Shown piece by piece: positions 36,636 to 41,498 of a stretch of DNA of 58,757 bases. Position 1 is the stretch's first letter. Every line of letters begins with the position of its first letter. The notes under the pieces were generated by a model. The model was not told the origin of the DNA, searched no databases, and saw nothing but the letters and a program-made list of their open reading frames with translations. A program made the position numbers and the translations under genes. Location: assembly GCA_003228915.1 (NCBI GenBank), contig QIGL01000099.1:1-58757 (forward strand), read 5' to 3'. This DNA comes from Acidiferrobacteraceae bacterium (GTDB lineage: Bacteria > Pseudomonadota > Gammaproteobacteria > Acidiferrobacterales > SZUA-150).

Positions 36636-36653
36636 TGGTGGGCCCGGTAGGAC
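36636..36653 (-). pseudogene. Isolated 3' end of a tRNA(CAU) copy
   Basis: TGGTGGGCCCGGTAGGAC is identical to the last 18 bases (with CCA) of the intact tRNA gene at 36852-36869. The rest of the tRNA is missing. Either a degraded tandem copy or an attachment-site-like direct repeat left by recombination. Confidence 0.7.
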
Positions 36654-36658
36654 GAAGC

Positions 36659-36812
36659 GCATGGCAAGGATTGTTCCCGACAATCCTTTTGCATTCCCAC
36701 CATCCCTGGCGGTCAGCTGCGCAAGTGCCGCGGGTGCATGGCAAGGATTGTTCCAGACAATCCTATTGCATTCCCTCCATCCATGGAGGTCAGATGTGCG
36801 AGAGACGCCTCG
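36659..36812. repeat. Two imperfect 77-bp tandem repeats with hairpins
   Basis: Units begin at 36659 and 36736 with GCATGGCAAGGATTGTTCC. Each has a hairpin (GGATTGT/ACAATCC) and a CATCC-TGG-GGTCAG segment. They lie between the tRNA 3'-end fragment and the intact tRNA. Confidence 0.75.
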
Positions 36813-36851
36813 AACAAGAAATGAATGAAGATCCGAAACACTCAGAATAAT

Positions 36852-37198
36852 TGGTGGGCCCGGTAGGACTCGAACCTACGACCAAGGGATTCACTTAACC
36901 CATCTGTTTCCAAAAGGAGTGGACTATCTCATCACCCGCAACACCTATGTTAATATGATGCTGTTTGGGCGCGGGACGCTCTTGCCTGTTATTAAGGACA
37001 TTTCGACTTTTTCAGCCAGTCCCCAGGTAGTCTCTGCACCTTCCGGCGGTATACCACCGGCTTGGCTCAGGATTGCCATCAGCCTACTTTAATAGCTGCT
37101 AAGGTTTCCCTGAATTCATCCCGTTCATTTCATACCTTTCGGTATGAACGCACCTTTCTTGATGAGTCCCCTGCTCTAACCAACTGAGCTACAGGCCC
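36852..37198 (-). tRNA. tRNA(CAU), probably tRNA-Ile2, interrupted by a group I intron
   Basis: Exon 1 is 37162-37198 and exon 2 is 36852-36891. Joined, they give a 77-nt tRNA with all arms paired: acceptor GGGCCTG/CGGGCCC, anticodon stem GGGGA/TCCCT, loop CTCATAA, T arm GTAGG/CCTAC, and encoded CCA. The anticodon is CAU. The body resembles bacterial tRNA-Ile2, where C34 becomes lysidine, more than elongator tRNA-Met, but this is not proven. The intron interrupts the anticodon loop right after U36. Confidence 0.9.
36892..37161 (-). other. Group I self-splicing intron in the tRNA anticodon loop
   Basis: A 270-nt insertion between U36 and A37 of the tRNA. It begins after a U and ends in G, as group I introns require. 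Internal guide GTGCG can pair with the 5' exon end (U36 to G wobble). A GAAA-capped P2-like stem (TTCATACC/GGTATGAA) follows. Core motifs are recognisable: P4 TCAGG/CCTGA, the GAGCCAAGCC segment, and P7 AGAGACTA/GATAGTCC. It closely follows the layout of the Azoarcus tRNA-Ile(CAU) intron (about 205 nt). No open frame or homing endonuclease inside. Confidence 0.88.
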
Positions 37199-37229
37199 GA
37201 TAAAAACTATTTCCTAACCTGTAGCTCAG
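37184..37229. repeat. 12-bp perfect inverted repeat across the tRNA 5' end
   Basis: CTGAGCTACAGG (37184-37195, inside the tRNA) and CCTGTAGCTCAG (37218-37229) are perfect inverted copies separated by 22 bases. The outer arm is an inverted fragment of the tRNA 5' region. Confidence 0.8.
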
Positions 37230-37236
37230 CACAAAA

Positions 37237-37366
37237 CTAACCAACTCATTAGCCATGGAAGGCCAGGTGTCGCGAAGACCACGGATGGTCGAGAGCGGCT
37301 TTGGCTAGGGACGGCCTTATGTCGCGAAGACCACGGATGGTCGAGAGCGACGAGCTACAGGCCCGA
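37237..37366 (-). pseudogene. Second tRNA 5' half split by inserted 52-bp repeats
   Basis: On the minus strand, TCGGGCCTGTAGCTC (37352-37366) matches the tRNA 5' end exactly. About 105 bases later comes AGTTGGTTAG (37237-37246), the next D-loop segment of the same tRNA. The interval is filled by two copies of a 30-bp repeat (37268-37297, 37320-37349; 52-bp period) containing the hairpin GACCA-CGGA-TGGTC. This looks like a tRNA copy disrupted within its D loop. Confidence 0.65.
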
Positions 37367-37570: not shown

Positions 37571-39457
37571 TTAATCTAAAAAACTCTTTAACCGCTCCGA
37601 TCGCGAAGGATGGCGCAGTTTGCGCAAGGCCTTGGCTTCAATCTGACGAATACGCTCACGGGTGACATCGAATTGTTTGCCCACTTCTTCCAGGGTGTGA
37701 TCGGTATTCATTTCAATCCCGAAACGCATTCTCAGCACTTTTGCCTCCCTAAGCGTCAAGGTCTCCAGCACTTCTTCCGTGGCACCTTTCAGGCCAGCAA
37801 AGGTAGCGGCATCAGGTGGTGCAGTGTCGTTTACGTCTTCAACAAAATCACCAAGATGCGAATCCTCGTCATCACCAATAGGGGTTTCCATGGAAATGGG
37901 TTCCTTGGCGATTTTCAGTACTTTGCGAATTTTGTCTTCCGGCATTTCCATGCGTTCGGCCAGCTCTTCCGGCGTCGCCTCACGGCCATACTCCTGCAGC
38001 ATTTGCCGGGAGATACGATTGAGTTTATTGATCGTTTCAATCATGTGTACCGGGATCCGAATAGTGCGGGCCTGGTCGGCAATTGAGCGAGTAATGGCCT
38101 GGCGAATCCACCAGGTAGCATAGGTCGAGAACTTGTAACCACGGCGATATTCAAATTTATCGACGGCCTTCATTAAACCAATATTGCCTTCCTGGATTAA
38201 ATCCAGAAACTGGAGACCGCGATTGGTATATTTCTTGGCAATAGAGATCACCAGGCGCAGGTTGGCCTCAACCATTTCTTTCTTGGCCCGCCGAGCCTTG
38301 GCTTCACCAATGGACATCTTGCGATTCACTTCTTTCAGGTTATGAATCGGTAACCCGGCACGTTCTTCAATATGGCCCAACTTGCCCTGGGCGTTTTGTA
38401 TGACAGCGCCATTGGCCTCAATCACATCCCCATGGCCTTCGCTGGCCTTGATGGCTTTTTTCAACCAACGCTTATTGGTTTCATTACCCGGAAAAATTTT
38501 AATAAAGGTTTTCCTGGGCATGCGTGCCTTGTTGACACAAATGTTCATAATAACGCGTTCTTGCTGACGGACACTGTCGACCATGCCGCGGACACTCTCG
38601 ACCAGGGCCTGAATTTGTTTGGAAACAAATTTGATGTGCAGCAATTCATCAATCAGTTTTTTCTGATTTTTTTCGGCATCAGATGAATCAATGCCTTTTT
38701 TCTCAATCGCCTTGATTAAAGCCTTATAATATTTGCGAATACGGCCAAAACGCTCAATGGCCTCCTCACGATTTGGCCCGGTTTCCTCTTCCTCTTCATC
38801 ATCGTCGTCTTTATCAGTGCCGTCTTTATTTTTTTCAGCCTTCTCAGCCTTGGCCTTCTCAGCCTTGGCCTTCTCTTCTTCAGGCTTCTTGGGCTGCGGC
38901 CTTGGCACCGGGTCATTAATGGCCTTGGGATCAATAAAATCCACCACCAGGTCGGTCAAACGCATTTGCTCGGCCTCGACCATTTCCATCAGGGCAATAA
39001 CCACCCCCATGGTTGAAGGACAGGAAGCAATCGCCATCACGCTTTGACGAATACCATCTTCAATACGTTTGGCCAGGATAATTTCGCCTTCACGGGTGAG
39101 CAGCTCTACTGTGCCCATTTCCCGCATATACATACGGACAGGGTCGGTGGTGCGACCAAATTCGCTCTCGACTGCACGGGCCACGACCTGCTCGGCTTCT
39201 TCGGCCGCATCGACAGATTCGCCTTCAGCGGTAGAACTTTCCGTTTTTAATAACAGGGTATCCGGATCAGGCGGCTGATCGAACACTTCTATGCCCATGT
39301 CATTAATCATATTGACCACGGCCTCGATCTGGTCCGTGTCATGGACCTCTTCAGGCAGGGAGTCATTGATCTCGCGATAAGTCAGGTATCCCTGTTCTTT
39401 ACCGCGAATAATCAGTTTTTTAAGTTCTGAGCGTTGGGCCTCTTGATCCATCACCAT
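37571..39457 (-). CDS. rpoD: RNA polymerase primary sigma factor RpoD
   Basis: A 628-residue sigma-70. Region 1.1 opens with [21 protein letters not shown]; region 1.2 has [24 protein letters not shown] non-conserved region contains a long charged stretch ([13 protein letters not shown], then DDDDEEEEE). Regions 2-4 follow ([53 protein letters not shown]). It directs core polymerase to housekeeping promoters. The ATG at 39457 is favoured because GAGAG lies 10 bases upstream; TTG 39478 and ATG 39451 are alternatives. Last gene of the rpsU-yqeY-dnaG-rpoD block. Confidence 0.96.
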
Positions 39458-39635
39458 TCCATTTTTACTCTCTAACAAATCAACTACCTATAATGAATAT
39501 TAACATTTCATTATAGACCAGGTTTTTAAAAAATCTTTATTAATCTCTTATTATTCAGTAACCCTTTTAACACCGGGCTTATTTCCCGAATTCTTTCATG
39601 TGCCCACAGGGGTGTCTTCTTTCCGGCTTTAGCAA

Positions 39636-41498
39636 TTATTGTCTTAATTTCTTCAATTCCTGTTTTTCTTGTTCAGTCAGCTCATCAAGGCCTTTGCTGG
39701 CTAAAGCCTGCACCCTTGCTTGTACCGCCTGATGCCTCATTTGATCGAAAATACCAGTGAATTCCGCCTCTTTATCGACTGCTTCTGAAAGCGGTTGCCG
39801 ACCTGCTAATTTTTGCAAGTGCGGAAAATACTCGGTTTCGCGATATCGTTCCAGTACTCTCGCCTGATTTAGGTCAGGTTCCTGTGCCACAAGAGCCAGT
39901 AATTCTCCTAACAAGTCGAGCCCGCGCCAATCCAATTCTGATAGTGAGTTAAAATCACCTGCATGAACGGCTAGCTGTGGCTCCTGGAGCAGCATGGTAA
40001 TGGCCTGTCTTACCAAGCTTTGCCGGGAATCCCGGTCAGGCGACCCCTGACCCCGCCTTTGGCGCATATTCGAGCCCATCGTAGATGGGGGCTTTTTATC
40101 CAAATTCAACGACTTGGATAATTTATCTTGGCCCAGACCTGACTGTTTTTCCAGGGTTTCCAGCAACATTTCCCTAAACACCCCTGGCGGTACTTTTTGG
40201 ATTAAGGGTTTAGCCAGTTCTGCCAACCGGGCCCGTCCATCCAAACGGCTTAAATCTACCTTCGCGACCAGTTCATCCATTAAAAATTCGGGCAAAGGCT
40301 TCACATTATTCATTCTTTGCTCAAATGCCGCCTGGCCCTCGGCCCGGATCATACTGTCCGGATCCTCGCCCTCAGGCAGGAACAGGAAGCTGACCTGACG
40401 ACCGCTGCGTAACAGCGGCAGGCTCTGTTCCAGGGCCCGCCAGGCCGCCTGCCGGCCGGCCCGGTCACCATCGAAGCAAAACACCACTTCCGGGGCGTGG
40501 CGAAATAACCGCTCCAGGTGGTCTGGTGTAGTGGCCGTTCCCAGGGTGGCCACCACGTTATTGACGCCATGTTGGGCGAGGGCCACCACATCCATATAAC
40601 CTTCTACTACCAGTACCCGGTTGGCGTGTTTAATCGCCTCCCGGGCCCGGAACAGGCCGTACATTTCCCGGCCCTTGTGAAATACCGGAGTTTCCGGTGA
40701 ATTCAGGTATTTTGCCGCTCCTGTGCGTCCTGCACTCGCGGCACTGGCATTTCCCTGTGCAGCGGCGCCTTCTGATTTCCCCGCTCCAGCGGCATTGGCG
40801 CTTCCTTGACTATCAGGCTTATTCGACGGTAACAAGCGGCCACCAAACCCCACCACCCGGCCGCGATAGTCATGAATCGGAAATATGATCCGGTGGCGAA
40901 ACCGGTCATAAATACCGCCACCGGTCTTGCCTGTAACCATTCCAGACTTTTCGAGCAAGTTGCGGCGCTCGGCAGTGGTGCCCAGGGCGGTTGCCAGGGC
41001 GTCCCAACCATCTGGTGCGAAACCAATGCCAAATTCGGCCGCAATCTCACCTGTCAGGCCACGTCCTTTTAAATAGTCCACCGCTTCCTGGGCGCCCCGA
41101 TGTTCGCGTAATAACTTACGGTAAAACAGGTCGGCCTCGTTGAGTATGGCCAATATGTCCTGGACATCGTCCTGGGCAACTGTCGCGGGGCCATCGCCTG
41201 ACCGCGGTACCTCCACGCCCATGCTGCTTGCCAGCGCCTCCACCGCTTCGGGGAAAGGCAGGTGTTCATATTCCATGAGAAAACCGATGGCCGAACCGTG
41301 GGCACCACAACCAAAGCAGTGATAAAATTGCTTATCCGCGCTTACTGTGAAAGAAGCTGTTTTTTCTTCATGAAACGGGCAACACGCCTTGTAATCTTTG
41401 CCGGCTTTTTTTAAGGGCACACGGCCATCTATGACATCGACGATGTCGGCGCGAACCAGAAGGTCATCAATAAATTGTTCGGGAATCCGGCCTGCCAT
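39636..41498 (-). CDS. dnaG: DNA primase DnaG
   Basis: A 620-residue primase. The zinc-binding domain has Cys40, His43, Cys61 and Cys64 (CCPFHEEKT, HCFGCGAHG). The RNA polymerase/TOPRIM core has VVEGYMDVVALAQHG and CFDGDRAGRQAA with the metal-binding acids. The C-terminal domain binds DnaB helicase. A low-complexity Ala/Gly/Ser insertion of about 35 residues lies between FGGRLLP and AKYLNSPETP inside the polymerase core, where most DnaG proteins have a short link. The reading frame is otherwise normal. Confidence 0.96.
   Translation of the reverse strand: MAGRIPEQFIDDLLVRADIVDVIDGRVPLKKAGKDYKACCPFHEEKTASFTVSADKQFYHCFGCGAHGSAIGFLMEYEHLPFPEAVEALASSMGVEVPRSGDGPATVAQDDVQDILAILNEADLFYRKLLREHRGAQEAVDYLKGRGLTGEIAAEFGIGFAPDGWDALATALGTTAERRNLLEKSGMVTGKTGGGIYDRFRHRIIFPIHDYRGRVVGFGGRLLPSNKPDSQGSANAAGAGKSEGAAAQGNASAASAGRTGAAKYLNSPETPVFHKGREMYGLFRAREAIKHANRVLVVEGYMDVVALAQHGVNNVVATLGTATTPDHLERLFRHAPEVVFCFDGDRAGRQAAWRALEQSLPLLRSGRQVSFLFLPEGEDPDSMIRAEGQAAFEQRMNNVKPLPEFLMDELVAKVDLSRLDGRARLAELAKPLIQKVPPGVFREMLLETLEKQSGLGQDKLSKSLNLDKKPPSTMGSNMRQRRGQGSPDRDSRQSLVRQAITMLLQEPQLAVHAGDFNSLSELDWRGLDLLGELLALVAQEPDLNQARVLERYRETEYFPHLQKLAGRQPLSEAVDKEAEFTGIFDQMRHQAVQARVQALASKGLDELTEQEKQELKKLRQ

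Follow-up and report, generated by a model that had tools for sequence, protein, structure and literature searches.

A group I intron of a phage-associated lineage, predicted to self-splice, in the tRNA-Ile(CAU) gene of a gammaproteobacterium

During our analysis of a 58.8-kb stretch of gammaproteobacterial DNA (hereafter the window), we asked what kind of element separates the anticodon of a tRNA(CAU) gene from the rest of its anticodon loop, where it came from, and how a cell might live with it. The original prediction held that the gene is interrupted by 270 nt directly after U36 and that the insertion is a group I intron in tRNA-Ile(CAU); the coordinates proved exact (Table 1), although the feature lies on the minus strand, which had been left unstated. 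The 5' exon ends in ...GGGGACUCAU, the intron begins with C, ends with G and has no ORF, and the 3' exon opens with AAUCCC. The covariance search proposed as a check, with the Rfam group I model RF00028, gave a match of 83.9 bits (cut-off 50; E-value 6.5e-20; positions 36900-37174, minus strand), the only Rfam gathering match within the window. Joining the exons, the second check, produced an intact 77-nt CAT tRNA with a perfect tRNA body, a complete cloverleaf and an encoded CCA. ARAGORN missed the gene when introns were disallowed; with introns allowed it found the same 270-nt insertion, slid by two bases, and named the gene tRNA-Gln(ctg), an identity (tRNA-Gln(CUG)) that we rejected as a product of the slide. 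Such genes are missed or misnamed by standard tRNA finders. With the Rfam match, the joined exons and the structure of 60 homologues described below, the group I assignment stands, and we are largely confident in the fuller reading from sequence that an ORF-less group I ribozyme of a phage-associated lineage interrupts an apparently single tRNA-Ile(CAU), from which it would splice itself, at the same site as the unrelated (IC3-type) intron of Azoarcus.

Table 1. Features of the intron-bearing tRNA gene and its surroundings, in order of transcription (positions in the window)
Feature	Position	Strand	Evidence
dnaG	39636..41498	minus	TIGR01391, 454 bits
rpoD, upstream neighbour, same strand	37571..39478	minus	NF004208, 877 bits
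Shortened duplicate of tRNA 5' end, about 14 nt	37352..37366	minus	direct repeat
tRNA-Ile(CAU) 5' exon, ends at anticodon CAU	37162..37198	minus	
Group I intron, 270 nt, between U36 and A37	36892..37161	minus	RF00028 and 60-sequence alignment
Guide GUG, pairs exon CAU (P1, U.G at 5' splice site)	37151..37153	minus	invariant, 60/60
P2 hairpin, GAAA loop	37129..37148	minus	double changes in 8/8 pairs
P3 5' strand (partner 36972-36978)	37117..37123	minus	alignment
P4 5' strand UCAGGG (partner 37067-37072)	37108..37113	minus	alignment
P5 hairpin	37076..37104	minus	alignment
P4 3' strand UCCUGA	37067..37072	minus	alignment
P6/P6a hairpin	37038..37066	minus	P6a covaries, 7/7 pairs
P7 5' strand GACUA, guanosine-binding helix	37028..37032	minus	invariant, 60/60
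Extra P7.1-like hairpin in J7/3, 43 nt	36985..37027	minus	covarying
P3 3' strand	36972..36978	minus	alignment
P8 hairpin	36933..36971	minus	alignment
P7 3' strand UAGUC	36922..36926	minus	invariant, 60/60
P9 hairpin, GAAA loop	36900..36917	minus	alignment
P9.0 3' strand AGU (partner 36918-36920), directly before terminal G 36892	36893..36895	minus	
tRNA-Ile(CAU) 3' exon, encoded CCA included	36852..36891	minus	
Shortened duplicate of tRNA's last 18 nt	36636..36653	minus	direct repeat

We assign the tRNA to Ile2 and not to elongator Met on three grounds: it follows rpoD, tilS (lysidine synthetase, 208 bits) is present in the same genome, and it resembles known gammaproteobacterial tRNA-Ile(CAU), to which we take the joined tRNA to be close. 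The C-terminus of RpoD was found just upstream in 71 of 127 related introns examined. The draft genome holds another CAT tRNA (contig C73); the other tRNA matches by blastn that we looked up, as candidates for a second tRNA-Ile(CAU), were tRNA-Lys, Asn, Val, Met and Thr. Blastn and junction-pattern searches found no second or intronless tRNA-Ile(CAU) in the 2.66-Mb draft, in agreement with the single copy that had been predicted, although at 95.9% completeness a further copy could be missing.

The named structure against which we scored an alignment of 60 gammaproteobacterial homologues comprised the anticodon stem, P1-P9, P9.0, the P3/P7 pseudoknot and the hairpin between P7 and P3. All core helices found support in the alignment: standard pairs occupied 98.2% of its cells, pseudoknot included, and both sides had changed in 37 of the 76 pairs. 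The covariation score was 0.366 against 0.142 for shuffled alignments, with none of 500 shuffles as high, and sliding the partners by 1-3 columns lowered pairing to 35-42%. Covariation came from P2, P6a, the J7/3 hairpin, P8 and P9; P7 and, within P1, the GUG:CAU pairs show no variation and therefore count as conserved, not covarying. The hallmarks originally read from the window copy were all recovered, namely the U before the intron and the G ending it, the GUG guide opposite CAU, P4 (UCAGG/CCUGA) and P7 (GACUA/UAGUC), while the single GAAA-capped stem turned out to be two (P2 and P9). All 60 homologues have the U.G at the 5' splice site, and the terminal G is present. P1 of the window copy contains one mismatch, U33 against C, and inspection of the alignment found no convincing pairing of the guide with the 3' exon (P10) in this copy.

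The core helices and splice-site residues required for splicing are thus present, and a route to mature tRNA can be drawn from group I biochemistry. In the pre-tRNA, the guide GUG would pair with the anticodon CAU to form P1, with a U.G pair where cleavage takes place. The P7-bound GTP would attack after U36. The last G of the intron would next occupy P7, and the 3' OH released on U36 would attack behind it, so that the exons are ligated. Modification for AUA reading could follow on the mature CAU tRNA, with lysidine added by TilS and t6A formed at the regained A37; an order of splicing first and both modifications afterwards, as had been predicted, is plausible. Most likely the intron serves no host function and rides along as a neutral passenger, tolerated because it would be spliced out.

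Many group I introns require protein help in vivo, and the gene lies among shortened tRNA ends and dispersed repeats, both of which would suit an intron that needs a host protein for splicing or a gene that is a decayed, non-functional copy. We nonetheless give this a low probability: the catalytic helices P3, P4 and P7 are all intact, joining leaves a perfect tRNA body, which belongs to the only AUA tRNA found, and the intron of a same-genus genome (locus L019, genome G001) departs from the window copy mostly through P2 and through an insert that lies clear of the core helices. Far less probable still is that the insertion is retained or slowly spliced and so acts as a switch regulating AUA decoding, a proposal for which the single-copy position is all that speaks, whereas AUA decoding needs a working tRNA-Ile(CAU) whose U36 and A37 the insertion parts, and the Rfam search of the window recognised no ligand-binding domain beside the ribozyme.

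Some details of these loci are recorded here for their own sake. The L019 intron measures 321 nt owing to a repeat-like insert of ~51 nt between the J7/3 hairpin and P3. Around the window gene, repeats (36654-36851 and 37199-37351) separate the intron-bearing tRNA from the remnants of its ends, and about 40 copies of the downstream one occur genome-wide. The arrangement looks like that of a whole tRNA gene brought into an older copy that is now broken. A 3' remnant of the same kind was seen at loci L015/L059 and L087.

The tRNA-Ile(CAU) group I intron of Azoarcus is already known, and the original prediction took the window intron for a larger copy with the same insertion site and core. The site and the GUG guide against CAU are indeed shared with the Azoarcus sp. 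BH72 intron (IC3), as are the host tRNA, a group I core and the lack of an ORF; the match of the core itself did not survive, as the window intron is only ~35% identical to Azoarcus-type introns, carries the covarying J7/3 hairpin and belongs to another lineage. The introns compared are of two types: a C-start type with the J7/3 hairpin, to which the window copy, most of the gammaproteobacterial introns and some from Burkholderiales belong, and a G-start type like that of Azoarcus, 203-216 nt long, that lacks the hairpin and groups with tRNA-Leu introns. Both types were found in Comamonadaceae. Our first tree gave two apparent lineages and had no outgroups, so we added phage introns. Two core trees then separated Azoarcus-type and tRNA-Leu(UAA) introns from the window type and the phage introns with support of 100/99, and because introns from outside tRNA-Ile fall on both sides, the tRNA-Ile introns do not form one clade under any root of the tree. 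In tests with a local-pair alignment and cleaned rows, forcing all tRNA-Ile introns into one clade gave a p-AU of 0.018, and forcing only the gammaproteobacterial and Azoarcus-type introns together gave 0.035.

These results bear on the simplest alternative, that the window intron is an enlarged descendant of the Azoarcus type (IC3), inherited vertically from a common proteobacterial ancestor and given its J7/3 hairpin later. Such descent would account for the shared tRNA, site and GUG guide opposite CAU, and the deep tree is unrooted, with a single clade not rejected on the rougher alignment (p-AU 0.088, non-significant). We consider it unlikely, though somewhat less so than protein dependence or decay, given the 100/99 bipartition with the tRNA-Leu introns on the Azoarcus side and the phage introns on the window side, the rejections on the cleaner alignment, a J7/3 hairpin shared with phage terminase and psbA introns, and patchy presence within families and even within a genus. 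With a 43-nt covarying J7/3 hairpin and a position across that branch, the window intron falls outside the Azoarcus (IC3) type. It appears instead that two lineages took the same tRNA-Ile(CAU) site; as seen in these trees, two or more ribozyme lineages seem to have colonised it, the guides of both types reading CAU, a natural convergence in target choice.

Known introns elsewhere place the window copy further. Group I introns in tRNA-Leu(UAA) are known from cyanobacteria and a deep-subsurface gammaproteobacterium; they too lie in a tRNA anticodon loop but in another tRNA and at another position, without the J7/3 hairpin and on the other side of the tree. One of these (296 nt) was present in the same genome as the window, scoring 49.0 bits against the Rfam cut-off of 50 (locus L002, 1476-1858, contig C47), and its exons join to an intact TAA tRNA; since it is of the other lineage, both lineages coexist in one cell. 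Introns in the same host tRNA, tRNA-Ile2, have been described in Acidovorax and Burkholderia, in betaproteobacteria only and with no lineage given (PMC8450103), whereas the window copy is gammaproteobacterial. Extra structure in J7/3 is also a feature of phage introns with P7.1/P7.2, such as those of phage Twort (PMC1995217). In subgroup IA2, as described for Pf-WMP3, P7.1 and P7.2 are joined by GUA (PMC3428280), and Staphylococcus phage introns have two J7/3 helices with GTA; the window intron, with a single interrupted P7.1 hairpin, departs from this published form of IA2, and it lies in a tRNA gene.

Sequence kinship links the window intron to introns in terminase genes of Vibrio phages and in psbA genes of cyanophages, which have the same form of J7/3 hairpin. 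A blastn search with the window tRNA and intron against annotated phages, which were thus found by similarity and not by a lineage pattern, matched a terminase gene of a Vibrio phage as well as jumbo phages of Klebsiella. One of the latter, Alcyoneusvirus Muenster, has a 231-nt intron after CAU in a tRNA(CAU) (104 bits to RF00028). Once its exons are joined, this tRNA shows 82.9% identity to E. coli tRNA-Ile; ARAGORN made no call on the joined tRNA, in which the D-loop is long. In a second Klebsiella jumbo phage, OU509535, a 228-nt intron lies in another tRNA(CAU), and here ARAGORN does call the joined tRNA. Muenster, KP13-7, RCIP0023, phiKp_21 and OU509535 all have an intron in tRNA(CAU), with no annotation of it in the annotated records looked at. 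These introns resemble the window copy in tRNA site, lineage and J7/3 hairpin, and differ in their length (231 and 228 nt) and in a P1 (GGUGAC) closer to the burkholderial form. That tRNA genes in complete jumbo phage genomes contain them is at odds with a 2014 review, according to which group I introns of phages had been observed in protein genes alone (PMC3984707).

Among IMG/VR sites with the core pattern, 9 of 122 lie in predicted tRNA genes, and one such intron (L244) is the nearest neighbour of the gammaproteobacterial clade (support 97/88), a closeness that is partly selection, the IMG/VR set having been fetched by a pattern from the window lineage, which also biases which phages join the tree. 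The window intron belongs, as judged from its sequence relatives, to a phage-associated lineage with a P7.1-like J7/3 hairpin, which may have originated in phages and been transferred from them. It is possible, and we propose it tentatively, that one phage-borne lineage moves between phage genes (terminase, psbA and tRNAs) and an essential gene, tRNA-Ile(CAU), in Gammaproteobacteria and Burkholderiales, that intron-bearing phage tRNA(CAU) genes are the vehicle, and that the lineage converged on the site of the unrelated Azoarcus lineage. Phage tRNA introns would offer a concrete, testable route into bacterial tRNA genes.

The intron is far from the rarity implied at the outset. RF00028 matched in 33 of 96 relatives, and most of the matches examined lie in tRNA-Ile(CAU) at the same site. 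A junction pattern (CTCAT followed by a base other than A) found at least 119 stretches in the GTDB collection, and among the matches listed at least 104 were complete introns (203-334 nt) whose 3' exon also matched, in Gammaproteobacteria and Burkholderiales. In a class-wide sample of 369 gammaproteobacterial genomes, 24 had an intron-type junction and 187 an intronless one, both being exact-pattern counts and hence lower bounds, and only one genome (G167) had both. The intron is therefore widespread in Gammaproteobacteria (at least 24 of the 369), and a single AUA-reading tRNA appears to be ribozyme-dependent in a sizeable share of the class. Both forms can be met in a single family, and also in the genus of G167 and G283; hence in places the intron has been gained or lost recently. 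To our knowledge, and within the literature searched, three points are new: how widely the intron is distributed in Gammaproteobacteria, that a separate, phage-associated lineage uses this site, and that phage tRNA genes carry it. A search of a library with few subscription papers found nothing specific on gammaproteobacterial tRNA-Ile introns or phage tRNA introns.

Genome G167 has an intronless tRNA-Ile beside rpoD. Its intron-bearing copy (locus L307, C10:260000-279900, 4943-4603, minus strand) comes straight after the tniQ gene of a Tn7-like element that has TnsA/TnsB-like, TniB and TniQ genes, along with methylase and ResIII genes; in G283, of the same genus, the intron-bearing copy is the one beside rpoD. 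The Tn7-like element is a possible vehicle for the intron-bearing gene. No plasmid relatives were found. Contigs labelled Akkermansia and Halobacteria (L046, L140) carry beta- or gammaproteobacterial introns, and these labels are probably binning contamination.

Other tRNAs are also interrupted. Inserted at the same point of the anticodon loop, a 237-nt intron of the window lineage, with the J7/3 hairpin, interrupts a tRNA-Lys(CUU) (L017, G067:C134). In an initiator tRNA-Met (L036, G026:C131) a group I intron ends just before CATAACCC, which implies insertion between U33 and C34; the total insertion is ~657 nt. In IMG/VR, introns of the window lineage occur in predicted viral tRNA genes at L199, L244, L246, L250, L258, L262, L285, L294 and L207, the hosts apparently including Lys, Asn, Thr and Leu tRNAs besides CAU tRNAs. 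Two further viral tRNA(CAU) genes (L159, L160) have insertions of 449 and 477 nt after CAU, a third type at this site; that of L160 scores 41.5 bits to RF00028 and has a tRNA-like sequence inside (RF00005, 30.8 bits, 1400-1503). A core string of these third-type insertions is common to 14 viral contigs (L164-L175 among the loci). Vibrio phage terminase genes are likewise broken by group I introns, with two Rfam matches at L177 (1526-1805 and 2449-2700), and the intron-split terminases (L177, L300, L301) are annotated as several terminase fragments or hypothetical proteins.
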